From Phanerochaete sordida (lineage: Eukaryota; Basidiomycota; Agaricomycetes; Polyporales; Phanerochaetaceae), in contig BPQB01000078.1 in NCBI GenBank assembly GCA_019973155.2, positions 62,001 through 126,000 of the forward strand: 64,000 nt of DNA. The letters run 5' to 3'. This document shows, piece after piece, positions 1-6,294 of this stretch; the stretch's first letter is position 1, and every line of letters starts with the position of its first letter. A program made the translations under genes and the position numbers. The notes beneath the pieces were generated by a model that saw only the letters and a list, made by a program, of their open reading frames with translations, searched no databases and was not told the DNA's origin.

Positions 1-1212
1 GCATGCTCCTTGGCGCGGCGCGGCGCTCTGAGCTGAAGCGAAGGCCAGGGAAGCGCGAGGGCCGGGCAGGGAAGATGTCTGCCGCGAGTGCGCTCGTAGT
101 GTCCATCCCGTCCGTCGTCGTCCACGCGTGATCCGGATCCGAGCGTGACTCGGATGTTCTCGCCCGTGAGGAAGGTGTATACCGCAGGTTGGAGGTGCTG
201 GATCCGGGGCTTGTAGTGTACCTGGCACGACATCCTGGATGAGCATGCCGCCTCGAAGACACGGTCAGCACGCTTGTACAGTGTTCGACCGACAGCTGAG
301 TTCGTTCGCACCTGGAACATCGCGCTCTCCCAGATCTCTCAGAACGACTTCTGGCGTCTGCGAGGGTTCGGTAGGCGAGAAGGGCCTGGGCAGGCATCGG
401 TGTCGACGCGCATGAGGCAGGGGCAGGGAATGGCCAGAGTCGAATGCTAGCCGGGGTAGGAAAGCGAGGACAATGTCCGCGAGAGGCTTGAACGCGACCT
501 TCGGATTGACGAACATGGCGCGGGAACGGCCGTCACGTTCGCCAGCCTGCAAGCCCCGACATCAGCACACTCGCGCCGCAAGGCACGCGAACGCGTCCAC
601 TATGCGCTCACCTGCACGTCTGTCCTGCCACCATGCCCGCCATATGCATGCCCCGCTAATTACCAAGTCTTCCGCTTCTCCTCGCTTCGCGCTTTGAGAC
701 TGCTGGGGGGAGGACAGGGCGTCGTCCAATTGTCAGAGCAGTAAAACACAGAACCTAAGGCGTTTGAGACTTACCAGCACTAGCTGGACCGCATTTCTTC
801 ACCCAAGATAGCGAGCTCGCACTGGCAGTAGCATGATCGGTATCCGAGAATTAAGAGCTGCTCAGCACGACACAGAATGTCTTCGAGGGAGGGTCAGGGT
901 TCGCGGACACTTCTATGGTTGCTGGCTGTTGTATGTGGGAGTTGGGGTTCACGTGTATGGATATTTGATCTGACTTTCGCAATATCTCGCGCGCTGATTC
1001 GGCACGCGATACCGCTTTTGGGGGGTGAGCTTTGTTTGTTCCAATGTTTGGTGCCAGCCGTCGGTGAGAGTGAGAGGTCCCACACTTGGGCCTAAAATGG
1101 AAGTCACTGATTTATGGAAGGTATTTCACACGGCCCTCAGAATAAGCCTCCTCTCCTTCGCCGCGAGACTTAAGGACCTCTCACTCGAACCGACGGCGTG
1201 GGTAGGAGCCTG
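1..1212. other. No confident gene left of the retroelement
   Basis: I see no recognisable protein or RNA gene here. The minus strand is open from about position 233 to the left edge (about 77 codons, starting MSCQVHYKPRI), so the end of a gene could run off the window. I recognise no family in it and do not call it. The small frames between 265 and 1095 look like chance ORFs in GC-rich DNA. Confidence 0.4.
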
Positions 1213-1354
1213 GTCGGGCTTAGTCAGCCAGGGATTATCCGTAGAATTTTCGAGTAGATTTCTCCTGTATTTAAGGAGGCCCCGGAGGGCCTCAGAGCGT
1301 TGAACACGAGCTTTCTAGTGTTACTGCCTGCGTGTTAATCCCCACTTCTTTACA
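1213..1354 (+). repeat. Left LTR, 5'-truncated
   Basis: These 142 bp match 2674-2815 without a mismatch. The copy lacks the first 76 bp of the right LTR, including the TGTTGG start, and the sequence upstream of 1213 is unrelated. It holds a TATTTAAG box at about 1268 that could be the promoter, and it ends in TTACA directly before the primer-binding site. The missing U3 start could reflect deletion, incomplete reverse transcription or recombination. Confidence 0.85.
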
Positions 1355-1368
1355 GGTTATGAGCCCCG
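1355..1368 (+). other. Primer-binding site for internal initiator-Met tRNA
   Basis: GGTTATGAGCCCCG follows the LTR end with no gap. It is complementary to the anticodon arm of initiator methionine tRNA, whose GGGCUCAUAACC core is conserved. Copia/Ty5-type elements are primed by this internal half-tRNA rather than by the tRNA 3' end, so the site supports Copia membership independently of gag. Confidence 0.8.
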
Positions 1369-1443: not shown

Positions 1444-1605
1444 GGCGTTTCTACGCCGTTTGGCTGTCTAGCCGTTGGTGTTTCTACACCGGTTGGGTTT
1501 CTACCCGTGTTCGCGTTTCTACGCGGTTGTCGTTGGTTGGCGTGTCTACGCCGTTGCGTTTCTACGCGTTTCGTTTGGCTGTCGAGCCGTGGGCGTTTCT
1601 ACGCC
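1444..1605 (+). repeat. Array of nine covarying mini-hairpins in the gag leader
   Basis: Nine inverted repeats lie in tandem at 1444-1457, 1462-1473, 1477-1490, 1495-1506, 1512-1525, 1539-1552, 1556-1567, 1577-1588 and 1592-1605. Each has a 4-5 bp stem closed by T:A around a four-base loop. Six loops are TTCT, two are GTCT and one is GTCG. The stems differ but always pair: GGCGT/ACGCC, GGCT/AGCC, GGTGT/ACACC, GGGT/ACCC, CGCGT/ACGCG and GCGT/ACGC. Linkers are often GTT-like. Changing stems with a fixed loop point to selection on RNA structure. A packaging or Gag-binding signal is an inference; translation control is an alternative. Confidence 0.85.
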
Positions 1606-1648: not shown

Positions 1649-2545
1649 ATGGAAGGACGTGCCGAGGGCAGCGGATTCAGCGGCGGATCGTCGCGTTTCG
1701 AGCTGTTGCACGACTCCAATTGGTACGCGTGGAAGTACCGTATGGAGATGCATTTGTTCCGCAAGGAACTATGGGGTTTGGTGTCCGGGGAGGAGCCGAG
1801 ACCAGTCGCGAATGCGAGAGCGCAGGCTGCATGGGACAAGCGCGCGAAGCTTGCCGCAGCGGAGATCGCCTTGCACGTGTCGGACGGTCAGCTGCCGTTG
1901 ATCCGGAAGACCACAGACCCGAAGGAGATGTGGCGGATTCTCAAGGAGACGCATGAGAACGCCGGCTGGGCGAACCGGATGGCGCTGATGCGCCGTTTCC
2001 TCTTGCTCAGGAAAGAGCCGGATGTGTCCATGCAGGATCACCTGAACCGCTTCCAGGACTATTACCAAGCGTTGATCGACGTGAAGGTCGATATTTCGGA
2101 CATGCTGAAGGTCACGGTACTCTTGGCGAGCTTGCCAGAAGAGTACGAGAACATTGTTACCGCTATCGAGTCCTACATCGAGGATACCGGTGCTACGGAC
2201 GATGCGGACGAATCGGGGGAGAAGAAGCCATCACCGAACTATGACTACGTGATGCGCCGCCTGCTGAACGAGGAAAAGCGCCGAAACCTCGTGCAGGAAT
2301 CCAGACCCGAGGCCGCGTATGCTGCGAAACCGGCGAAGCGTCGTCAGCGCCGTGAGGATATCACTTGCTTCGAGTGCAAGGAGAAGGGACATTACCGGAA
2401 CGAATGCCCGAAGGCGAAGAAAGAGCACGCCGACGTTGGCGTGGATTTCGGATTCTGGTGCCAGGAGTCCGGTGACGTCATGGAACGGTTCGACGACGGT
2501 ATCGTCGAAACCTTCCAGCGGACTCGGGACGGCTTCGCGCTGTAG
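1649..2545 (+). CDS. Gag-like protein with UBN2 region and CCHC zinc knuckle (Copia type)
   Basis: The 298-residue product resembles the retrotransposon Gag (UBN2-type) region, which forms virus-like particles around element RNA. The N-terminal part has the usual Y-WKYRMEMHL and AW-KR-AAEIAL features, then ETHENAGWANRMALMRRF and a segment ending in LLASLPEEYENIV. Near residue 245 lies a CCHC zinc knuckle, CFECKEKGHYRNEC, which normally binds nucleic acid. The true start is taken as the ATG at 1649, because the frame opens upstream only with a TTG. The stop is an ordinary TAG with no pol downstream. The acidic tail after the knuckle is not one I recognise. Confidence 0.88.
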   Translation: MEGRAEGSGFSGGSSRFELLHDSNWYAWKYRMEMHLFRKELWGLVSGEEPRPVANARAQAAWDKRAKLAAAEIALHVSDGQLPLIRKTTDPKEMWRILKETHENAGWANRMALMRRFLLLRKEPDVSMQDHLNRFQDYYQALIDVKVDISDMLKVTVLLASLPEEYENIVTAIESYIEDTGATDDADESGEKKPSPNYDYVMRRLLNEEKRRNLVQESRPEAAYAAKPAKRRQRREDITCFECKEKGHYRNECPKAKKEHADVGVDFGFWCQESGDVMERFDDGIVETFQRTRDGFAL

Positions 2546-2588: not shown

Positions 2589-2597
2589 GAGGGGGAG
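2589..2597 (+). other. Polypurine tract
   Basis: GAGGGGGAG lies directly before the TGTTGG start of the right LTR. This is the expected place and composition for the plus-strand primer of an LTR retrotransposon. Confidence 0.75.
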
Positions 2598-2815
2598 TGT
2601 TGGAACGTCGTCGACCCGCGCATGTGCGCATGTGGCAGTGGGGCGCGAGAGAATGCACTGGAAATGGGATGACGTCGGGCTTAGTCAGCCAGGGATTATC
2701 CGTAGAATTTTCGAGTAGATTTCTCCTGTATTTAAGGAGGCCCCGGAGGGCCTCAGAGCGTTGAACACGAGCTTTCTAGTGTTACTGCCTGCGTGTTAAT
2801 CCCCACTTCTTTACA
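2598..2815 (+). repeat. Right LTR, complete
   Basis: The repeat runs from TGTTGG at 2598 to TTACA at 2815, 218 bp, with the usual TG..CA ends. Its last 142 bp are identical to the left LTR. The next five bases (AAGGC) have no copy before the left LTR. Confidence 0.8.
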
Positions 2816-3295: not shown

Positions 3296-4804
3296 ATGCA
3301 CCCCTGTCTGCATATCGACGAGGTCATAGAGAACATCGCGAGTCATGTCGAAGACAACCGCACGCTAACGCGCCTCGCACTGGTCTGCCGAGCATTCGTC
3401 GAGCCCGCGACCGATGCGCTGTGGGCTCATCTCAGTGGCCTTGAGCCCCTGCTTTCGTGCCTCTCTTCCGACCTGATGGGGCCGTCTCAAAGGTCATATA
3501 GGGCTTTGGTAAGTCCCTCTCCACCTGTTCCATGCTGGTGCTGAAGGCCCTCGGGGTTGCAGACGATAAGAGCGCCTCCGACGCTAGCCGGATGGGCTCG
3601 ATTTCGCCACTACGCTCGAAAAGTGAAGTCACTTCATATACGCCCTGCCAATTTACGAAAGCTGCAGGACAATGGCGGGACTACGATCCTGGCTGAACAT
3701 CACCCGGACGGCGTTTTGCCAAACCTCAAGCATCTCCGGTGGCACGAACAGTGGGGCTCCGAGACGCTCGCGCTGGCCTTCATGCGTCCCTCGCTGAGTA
3801 CTCTCACATACGTAGGCAACACCACTCAGGCACTGCGTACTGTCATGGAACACGTCCGAGCCAATCTCCCCCAGCTCAACGACTTCACATGCTCGTACGA
3901 CTCCCTGTATCTCCCCCCAGACGATTCCATCGTCAATGAGTTTTCGGACACCATCCTCGCCTTGGGAAACCTCACCACATTCCTGTACACCTCCAATGTT
4001 CTCCGTTCCGACGCAGTGCTCCATCTGTCCAGAATCCCGCATCTCACCACTCTCTCCGTGGTACTCGACAGCGAAACCCACGAGCTATGGATCAATCCCC
4101 GCTCTGGAGGCTTTTGTGCCCTCACAAATCTCACTTTGAGAGTCTGTCCAATGGAGGGCGGCCTATCTCCATGTGTACGCATGCTGCAGACGCTCTCGGG
4201 CCTTGCGCTTACGAACTTAGAACTAAATATCTCGACCCCCTCGATACGCGCCGGTGAATACGCAGACCTTGTCTCTGCCATCGGACGCTTTCGTCACCTG
4301 CGAGACTGTCTGATCGTAGGCAGCAGACTCAGCGGAGACCCCGCCCACGCTGCCCACGCCATCGACGCAAGCGCTCTCACTCCCCTCCACGCACTCTCCG
4401 ACATGCGCCGCTTCCACCAGAGGTCGATCCCCGTCGCCCTATACCCGGAGAGTGCCCGGCAGCTCGCCGCAGCGTGGCCTCGCCTCGAGGACCTCGCGAT
4501 CCGCGCACACTCAGTCGAGCACAGACTCTACCGTGAGCTGCGCCGCGACGACCTTCTTGCGCTTGCTCGGAGCTTCCCGAGCGCGGAGGCCCTCGCTGCC
4601 CCGGTGCACCCCGTGCGCGACGACCAGGCGTACAATCCTTCTGCGATCGATCCCCCACCGTCGGCCTCCAACTCGTTCGGTCTCGGAGAGTCCGCGAATT
4701 TAGCGCGTGCCGTCGACGGCATGGCAGCGTGCCTCGCGAAGATGTTCGCTCCGGCGCGGCTCGAGGATGACTGGGTCGAAGTCGAGAGGTCAGGTGCAGA
4801 ATGA
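3296..4804 (+). CDS. F-box/LRR-like protein, tandem copy 1
   Basis: Two exons, 3296-3508 and 3563-4804, encode 484 residues. The N-terminus (MHPCLHIDEVIENIASHV, then LALVCRAFVEPATDALWAHL) is the short F-box-like module shared by most F-box genes in this window. Such proteins usually act as substrate receptors of SCF ubiquitin ligases. The rest is a series of leucine-rich helices (LTNLTLRVC, LTNLELNIS, LEDLAIRAH) typical of a divergent LRR solenoid. The intron after codon 71 is phase 0, as in the paralogs. It is followed about 180 bp later by a clear tandem copy. The substrate is unknown. Confidence 0.82.
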
Positions 4805-4982
4805 TAGAAGTAATTCGCTCGTAAAGACCTTTTCCCCAATGGATATTGAGTGATACGTATTGAGAGTCAAATATTATGTGGCCGTGGGAGTCTACGACTG
4901 CGGTGACAGCGCTCACTCTCTGACTACGAGGACGCGTCTTTTCTCAGACCGCGCTGTCCTCCTACGCCAGTCTCAAGACACC

Positions 4983-6294
4983 ATGCATCCATGTTTACAC
5001 ATCGATGAGATCACGAGGAGTATCGCAAGCCATGTAGAGCACAGGCATACCCTGGTGCACCTGGCCTTGGTATGCCGGGCGTTCGCCGAGCCCGCGACCG
5101 ACGAGCTCTGGTCGCATCTCGATGGGCTGAAGCCTTTGCTTATGTGCTTGCACTCTAACCTGCTGGGGAAATCAGACACGGTGTACAACGCTTTGGTAAG
5201 TCCCTCCACAAATAGAGCCATATTCGTGCTGAACTAGCCTGCGAATGTAGACGATCCTCGTTCCTCCGACGCAGGACGAGTGGTCGCGATTTAGGCATTA
5301 CGCGCGGAAAGTGAAGTCGCTGGAGACTCATGCGACATATGGGGGACGGCTGCTAGACGACGCGGGGTATGCAATCCTAGCAGAGCACCATCCGGATGGG
5401 GTATTGCCGAATCTCAGGCATCTCAAGTGGCACGAATGGGGCGGCGAGACACCCGCGCTACCCTTCATGCGTCCTACGCTGAGTACTCTCGCATTCGTGG
5501 GCGGCACCGTCGAGGCTCTACGCGCTGTAATGGCGCATATCCGGGACAATCTCCCACAGCTGGAGGAATTTACCTACTCGCACGACTCGTGGTTTTCGCC
5601 AATCGATATCCTCATCAATGACTTCTCTGACACCATCCTCGCACTTCATCACTTGACCTCATTCCCCAACACCTCCGCCTTTATTCGTCCAGACGTAGTA
5701 CTTCATCTCTCCCGGCTGTCGCATCTCACATCCCTCGCTGTAATCCTCGAGAACAGGAACCGAGACCTCTGGACCCAGCCCCTGGTGGGAGGCTTCCCTG
5801 CGCTCACACATTTGACCTTAACTGTCCTGACCAAGGAGGAGGGTCTACTCCCCGGAGTCCAAATGCTACAGACACTCTCAGGGCTTGCGCTCACCAACAT
5901 CAAGATCAAGGTGTCGATTCGCTCTGTGGCCATCGACCACTGCACAAGCCTGATCTCCGAGCTCGGTCGCTTCCGACGCCTGCAAGAATGCGACATCTGG
6001 GGCAGCAGCACCATCGACGACGTCGAGTACTTCGACGCGAGCGTGTTCGGCCCTCTGCACCCGCTCGCAGACATCCGCACCTTTACCTGGCCCTTCCTAC
6101 CCGTCGCCTTCACGCAAGAGAGCGCCCAGCAGCTTTCCGCGGCCTGGCCGCAGCTCAAGGAGTTCTACGTCTGCACGCCCTCTGATGAACCCGGGCCCCC
6201 GCCGCCCGTCCCGGGTCACCGCCCCGGTTACATGCGCCTCGAAGACCTCCTCTGGCTCGCGCAGCGCAGCACGCGCCTCGAGCCAGGCCCTTGA
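4983..6294 (+). CDS. F-box/LRR-like protein, tandem copy 2
   Basis: Exons 4983-5195 and 5251-6294 encode 418 residues. The protein is close to its upstream neighbour throughout: the same MHPCLHIDEI start, the same intron after codon 71, and matching blocks such as ILAEHHPDGVLPNL and FMRP-LSTL. It ends about 66 residues early. Just before the stop the +1 frame continues with a sequence resembling the neighbour's tail (SSQALDAMTYPPRED), so a one-base indel probably truncated the C-terminus. It may still be a working adaptor because the F-box and most of the LRR region are intact. Confidence 0.8.

Follow-up and report, generated by a model that had tools for sequence, protein, structure and literature searches.

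The leader of a gag-only copia-type LTR element of 1.68 kb (1676 bp at copy C51), located in the 64-kb stretch of DNA analysed here (the window, which lies on contig C78 in an assembly of 40.8 Mb), carries nine short hairpins with variable stems and a constant type of loop. The array points to a cis-acting RNA signal rather than a device for Gag translation. We propose that it is a multi-copy signal read by the element's own Gag for packaging of the gag-only element, a proposal that we believe about as much as we doubt; Gag-mediated packaging would be the best mechanism. The search for copies throughout the genome revealed what is new here, a second gag-only family with a different array, kept after the loss of gag and in TRIM-like elements.

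The window element, encoded on the forward strand, has the features of a TR-GAG-like element: two TG...CA LTRs, target duplications, gag without pol, a primer-binding site (PBS) and a polypurine tract. The 3' part of its 5' LTR (LTR query positions 76-217) lies at 1213..1354, while query positions 1-84 are found upstream of the window, at C78:61332-61415. The two parts are separated by a DNA transposon of about 1.8 kb (window 1-1212 plus L045 from 1585), with terminal inverted repeats of about 39 bp starting CAGGCTCCTACCCACGCC and a 9-bp target duplication, GTCGGGCTT. The PBS GGTTATGAGCCC (1355..1366) is complementary to the anticodon half of tRNA-Met; half-tRNA priming of this sort is known for copia and Ty5. 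Exact CAGGTTATGAGCCC sites occur 12 times in the genome, eight in the window family and four at copia-type loci, and GGGCTCATAACCC has five genome matches, of which the two examined both lie within tRNA-Met genes. Self-priming was considered for this family and rejected, the best pairing being 5 nt (copy C51). The gag gene (1649..2545) codes for a copia-type Gag of 298 aa with Pfam matches to Retrotran_gag_2 (E 9.8e-39) and one CCHC zinc knuckle (E 1.1e-4), and pol is absent. The polypurine tract GAGGGGGAG, read directly, is at 2589..2597 and is followed by the 3' LTR of 218 bp (2598..2815). The 5-bp target duplication at the outer element ends is AAGGC in the window copy and AGTAC in copy C51. 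The sequence-only reading, which had described a gag-only LTR element with an array between the PBS and gag, is borne out by this organization.

Two further features of the 5' region were noted. The LTR sequence GTTACTGCC (window 1320-1328) is complementary to GGCAGTAAC in the leader (1372-1380), and the latter also forms the closing stem of a hairpin (GGTTA...TAACC) that encloses the PBS. The arrangement resembles a U5-leader pairing or switch. The sole ATG of the 294-nt leader, with 2.8 expected, opens a 6-codon frame (MSPEGQ) at 1359-1379, inside the PBS.

The array comprises nine perfect inverted repeats with stems of 4-5 bp at 1444-1605, all with a T:A closing pair and a KTCK loop (TTCT in six, GTCT in two and GTCG in one). 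These are GGCGT-TTCT-ACGCC (hairpin 1, 1444..1457), GGCT-GTCT-AGCC (hairpin 2, 1462..1473), GGTGT-TTCT-ACACC (hairpin 3, 1477..1490), GGGT-TTCT-ACCC (hairpin 4, 1495..1506), CGCGT-TTCT-ACGCG (hairpin 5, 1512..1525), GGCGT-GTCT-ACGCC (hairpin 6, 1539..1552), GCGT-TTCT-ACGC (hairpin 7, 1556..1567), GGCT-GTCG-AGCC (hairpin 8, 1577..1588) and GGCGT-TTCT-ACGCC (hairpin 9, 1592..1605). The eight spacers are G- and T-rich and each starts with G. The nine repeats had been recognized in the earlier reading, and their exact positions are confirmed; 2000 dinucleotide shuffles of 1441-1616 yielded a mean of 0.02 and a maximum of one KTCK hairpin with a stem of at least 4 bp. Elsewhere in the window, the richest 176-nt stretch (in 20-nt steps) holds four hairpins with any 4-nt loop. 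No Rfam covariance model matched region 1200-2820 on either strand at E <=1. A coding role of the array was rejected: the gag frame is closed there, the units of relatives lie in three frames, and in the second family some motif spacings are not divisible by three. Another frame stays open through 1441-1616 but has no ATG.

Compensation between the arms, also claimed in the earlier reading, is upheld by the more sensitive measures. Matched with their own partners, the arms give Watson-Crick pairs at 41 of 45 positions, whereas permuted arms give 30.1 on average (P = 5e-5). Covariation was evaluated on nine aligned units, eight of them distinct, with partners shuffled 500 times. All cells pair, compared with 72% in shuffles (0/500), and the covariation score is 0.686, compared with 0.159 in shuffles (0/500) and 0.348 when partners are slid by +3; the outermost pair column is U.G in the four 4-bp units. 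Two coarser measures, in contrast, stay within the range of the shuffles: three pairs changed on both sides against 2.1 (146/500), and five further pair types against 3.3 (64/500). By sequence and covariation, the array qualifies as a structured 5'-leader element.

The genome contains eight full copies of this family (family 1). The leader is 294 nt long in all of them, with no indels. Across the copies, 325 of 328 stem pairs (41 in each) are Watson-Crick, and the remaining three are G.U on the transcript strand (hairpins 2 and 9 in copy C51, hairpin 7 in copy C98); on the opposite strand these variants would be A-C mismatches. The chance that all three stem substitutions give G.U is 0.005-0.064, depending on the transition bias assumed. 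The array is present in each of the eight copies. Loop variants are present in hairpin 1 (copies C36 and C118), hairpin 4 (C98), hairpin 5 (C36) and hairpin 7 (C190), so that variable sites among these recent copies are about equally frequent in loops (4/36) and spacers (6/50), which counts against the packaging reading. Stems are weakly more conserved (3/82 variable sites, against 10/86 in loops and spacers together; Fisher P = 0.08). All 33 exact GTTTCTAC pairs in the genome fall inside the eight gag-bearing copies, compared with seven matches to a control pattern. A gag-less family-1 derivative with the array was not found in the genome, retention after gag loss being seen in family 2 only, and the other LTR matches examined (five of family 1 and eight of family 2) are followed by neither a PBS nor an array.

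The gag frame is open in all eight copies (306-308 aa), and its variant codons, 67 synonymous to 14 non-synonymous (omega about 0.06-0.08), show that family-1 Gag is under purifying selection. The LTR pairs are identical in all six copies compared. The element has moved recently, and its own Gag matters for that. One copy (G000:C118:63777-65447) ends about 2 kb before the PBS, identical to its own, of a copia-type locus (67535 onward).

Two further gag-only elements are present in the genome, at C145 (L018) and C15 (L017). The Gag of C145 is 25% identical to the window Gag, and in the leader of C145 the motif GGCCGAAG occurs six times, in stems of 7, 6, 5, 4, 5 and 3 bp, the arms of which compensate (for example, tgaacga/tcgttca, gagcga/tcgctc and gctgg/ccagc). 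C95 (L048) is 93-94% identical to C145 in the aligned parts (C145 positions 1-567 and 1297-1692) and has lost most of gag. It keeps all six array units, the fifth one pair shorter, together with three extra 3-bp units; C95 is an intermediate and a possible step from gag-only to TRIM-like elements. Three elements, C133 (L059), C70 (L060) and C55, are 1191-1247 bp long and have 5-bp target duplications and LTRs of 225-227 bp; on the plus strand, no ATG-initiated frame in their interior reaches 40 aa. As short LTR elements with a non-coding interior and a target duplication they belong to the TRIM type. They contain five, six and five exact GGCCGAAG motifs, respectively. With the simple-sequence filter off, their top-scoring similarity to C145 covers the array (76-77% at positions 348-542); the LTRs and a region close to the 3' end also match, at lower scores. 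Paired GGCCGAAG has 26 matches genome-wide (control 3), 22 of them in C145, C95, C133, C70 and C55. The array is thus retained in C95, C133, C70 and C55, which have lost coding capacity, and such persistence would be anticipated for a packaging-type signal that acts in cis. Weak 3-bp GGCCGAAG units number one in C145 and two to four in each of the other family-2 elements.

The family-2 leader has no ATG, and the three TRIM-like interiors have one each, against 4-5 expected. In C145, C133 and C70, the sequence CAAACGCGC immediately downstream of the 5' LTR is complementary, with G.U allowed, to 10-11 nt of the LTR of the same element. The pairing site lies about 30 nt after a TATA in C133 and C70; no TATA was seen in C145, and in C55 the pairing is only 6 nt. 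This pairing recalls self-primed Tf1-type elements as they appear in the available parts of the literature (PMC5445492, PMC6934838).

Seven copia-type loci with open frames of 648-1493 aa, presumed to be autonomous from their frame length only, have the same PBS as the window family or a one-base variant, and encode Gags that share 23-30% identity with that of the window element. The leaders of all seven were read, and none contains a constant-loop array (scanned as at least four identical-loop hairpins within 400 nt). No array is present in the short leader of the third gag-only element, C15. The array is therefore not a general need. Hairpins with unlike loops are common in other loci, with 6-14 in the richest 170-nt stretches when loops of 3-6 nt are admitted and nested hairpins are counted separately, and the only distinctive feature of the arrays is the constant loop. 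A dense cluster of unlike-loop hairpins was seen on the reverse strand of L021 (1001-1170), upstream of the PBS of a copia-type locus. C15 has identical 204-bp LTRs and a Gag 40% identical to that of C145. The genome yielded no close autonomous parent for the window family.

The proposed sequence of events is as follows. The transcript would begin in the 5' LTR, and its leader would fold into nine short hairpins with a UUUCUA-type loop, with G-U-rich linkers between them. Several molecules of the element's own Gag, the putative reader, would bind the repeated hairpins and nucleate a particle on the element's own RNA, packaging being the step presumably served. Reverse transcriptase, integrase and protease would be supplied by an autonomous copia element, since a gag-only element would still need Pol from elsewhere. 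The purifying selection on Gag suggests that the protein works preferentially on the RNA that encodes it. Because the element makes a selected Gag, whereas the long-frame copia-type loci have Gags only 23-30% identical and no array, the array more probably marks the RNA for the element's own Gag than serves to steal the shells of another element. The sequence-only reading, which had suggested a multivalent recognition array, perhaps for the CCHC knuckle of Gag, that could let the element compete for particles, is supported in part.

In the 306-nt leader, the nine hairpins have predicted pairing probabilities of 0.47-0.93. When 1441-1616 is folded alone, hairpins 1, 2, 8 and 9 drop to 0.02-0.08 because they pair with each other, which counts against the packaging reading. 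The stability of the whole leader is not unusual (z -1.23), and that of the array alone is (z -3.2). The C145 leader folds less stably than 100 of 100 shuffles, with three of its six hairpins in the best fold, again to the disadvantage of the packaging reading; taken singly, family-2 hairpins of 4-7 bp fold as drawn, and the 3-bp type does not. The exchange of partners between self-complementary stems in the isolated array raises the possibility that the hairpins serve dimerization or the organization of the template for priming and strand transfer, with no specific recognition by Gag. Stems that are nearly palindromic could pair between two RNA molecules, GGCC within the family-2 loop is a palindrome, and the array lies shortly downstream of the PBS. 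However, a dimerization signal requires either arms that are conserved or a loop that is palindromic, and this array combines variable arms with a constant loop; in addition, the family-1 UUCU loop cannot kiss itself. We consider this explanation unlikely, but not negligible.

Recognition by Gag may also be replaced by recognition by the host. A host protein could read the array, or the array could shape RNA export, stability, storage granules or escape from silencing, with an indirect effect on packaging. Loop-constant repeats are typical of RNA-binding protein sites, and elements of one genome whose loops are unrelated could each attract a different host protein. Wholly different loops in families whose Gags are 25% identical are, however, better explained by private Gag-RNA pairs, and a host reader is, if anything, marginally less probable than a role in dimerization.

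The position of nine G+C-rich hairpins between the 5' LTR and gag, in an array without ATG and in a leader whose sole ATG is in the PBS, would also suit a function in slowing or gating ribosome scanning, so as to balance Gag translation against use of the genome. The family-2 array, however, outlives gag, being kept in three non-coding elements and in C95, and this argues against a role tied to Gag translation, making such a function improbable.

The protein searches, in which some comparisons scored only candidates sharing most words, covered lengths of 0.55-1.75 times the query, so that autonomous relatives elsewhere were outside their scope. They returned the window protein's own record, from Phanerochaete sordida and 99% identical, and 13 relatives (P0002-P0014) with 41-80% identity. 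Two of these, P0005 and P0006, have Gags about 65% identical to the window Gag and long N-terminal extensions, which we read as translated leader. Back-translation of the extensions allows seven (P0005) and four (P0006) units of 3 bp + TTTCTA + 3 bp, compared with 0.26 and 0.17 in shuffled peptides (0/400 each), and none in the Gag part of P0005. TTTCTA ranks first of 256 T-NNNN-A loops, with 11 units in the two proteins together; the next, TCTCTA, has seven and overlaps TTTCTA via codon degeneracy. The peptides GVSTP, GFLA and WRFYA represent the units in three different reading frames, so that it is the nucleotides that are conserved. The presence of the array in these relatives is supported indirectly, by back-translation only. 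Among viral contigs, Gag and Gag-profile scans found no relatives. Picking by motif pattern gave at least 149 loci; 19 of 149 hold at least three clustered TTTCTA-type palindromes, mostly one stem repeated, and none of the 149, among the matches listed, has a GGCCGAAG array with stems of at least 4 bp. A looser pattern of paired TTCTAC gave no information, as it had fewer matches (82 + 93) than its control (191 + 204).

The viral clusters, although limited to the matches listed, count in favour of a neutral, mutational origin, in which a short palindrome would have spread in tandem and its self-complementarity would have been kept by template switching of reverse transcriptase and not by selection. 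Arm-to-arm correction of short palindromes is possible, and in recent copies the loops drift about as fast as the spacers. On the other hand, the three stem variants are G.U and not templated Watson-Crick changes, the stems differ between units whereas most viral clusters repeat one stem, TTTCTA is the best of the 256 loops in the translated leaders of relatives, and family 2 acquired an array of its own, unrelated to this one, that persisted after the loss of gag. A neutral origin appears slightly more doubtful still than a role in scanning.

Least probable, and to our judgement very much so, is a function at the DNA level, with the repeats as binding sites driving transcription. It has a precedent in Sireviruses, whose palindromic box clusters lie, in the available text, upstream of the LTR TATA box (PMC2829016), but the boxes here are in the leader, downstream of the LTR. 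Moreover, a dimeric DNA-binding protein would need the opposite of varying arms with a constant loop, and the stem variants pair on the transcript strand only. A constant loop on variable, compensated stems indicates a hairpin read through its loop and argues against a duplex DNA site, the arms of which would be constant; the signal probably acts as RNA.

Known Psi regions contain a few unlike hairpins, coronavirus SL5 consists of a few large hairpins on one junction, and TR-GAG elements are small gag-only LTR elements relying on a helper. Unlike in Psi, the leader here repeats a single hairpin type nine times with a constant loop, Gag being the putative reader, and unlike in TRIM and TR-GAG elements, a recognizable repeated candidate signal is visible. 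A loop-constant hairpin array in the leader of an LTR element was not found in titles and abstract openings of the open-licence literature. The following comparisons refer to the available portions of the papers cited. The cis packaging sequences of Ty1 are within 580 nt of the RNA 5' end (PMC4974528), and Ty1 and Ty3 resemble the present elements in that a 5'-end region is needed in cis and mini-elements move with proteins supplied in trans (PMC4974528, PMC8396678). Ty1 differs in that its Gag prefers RNAs that have a long-range pseudoknot at the 5' end and binds to many RNAs with low specificity, and those portions describe no repeated hairpin array for Ty1 or Ty3 (PMC4974528, PMC8396678). 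Retroviral Psi (MoMuLV SL-B, SL-C and SL-D with a UCUG site; the HIV-1 leader) likewise has several 5'-leader stem-loops and several sites, over two dozen in HIV-1, for a zinc-knuckle nucleocapsid (PMC7599994). In coronavirus SL5, a loop motif (UUYYGU) is repeated near the 5' end and proposed as a packaging signal, albeit in an unrelated virus (PMC10927501). TRIMs are small, helper-dependent LTR elements for which a packaging signal is assumed (PMC4558846, PMC6934838); it is conserved only as secondary structure and hence difficult to identify (PMC4558846). Sireviruses share clusters of short palindromes in a copia-type element, which in two of the four elements drawn are also found beside env, but their boxes have CGG-CCG arms upstream of TATA, in contrast to the variable arms and constant loop in the leader here (PMC2829016). 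The fungal copia GalEa has a conserved hairpin just downstream of the 5' LTR, the Conserved Hairpin Site, but this is a single site without a PBS, whereas a PBS and nine hairpins are found here (PMC5445492).

Extended to both families, the packaging reading would mean that each gag-only family repeats a private loop (UUUCUA or GGCCGAAG) as a multivalent tag for its own Gag, that the TRIM-like elements are third-level parasites carrying the tag, and that both borrow Pol from untagged autonomous copia elements. This wider scheme is possible, but we hold it with more doubt than confidence. For LTR retrotransposons without gag, packaging signals are ill defined, and here a candidate is legible in plain sequence; if true, it would represent a compact multi-site RNA-Gag pair. 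Two versions of the array in one genome, with natural deletion derivatives of one of them, allow a direct test of which Gag reads which loop, and the same material could show how parasites of parasites enter particles.

Downstream of the element, window 3296-6294 contains two diverged tandem copies of a gene starting MHPCLHIDE, 72-76% identical in parts, which we take to be F-box-like.
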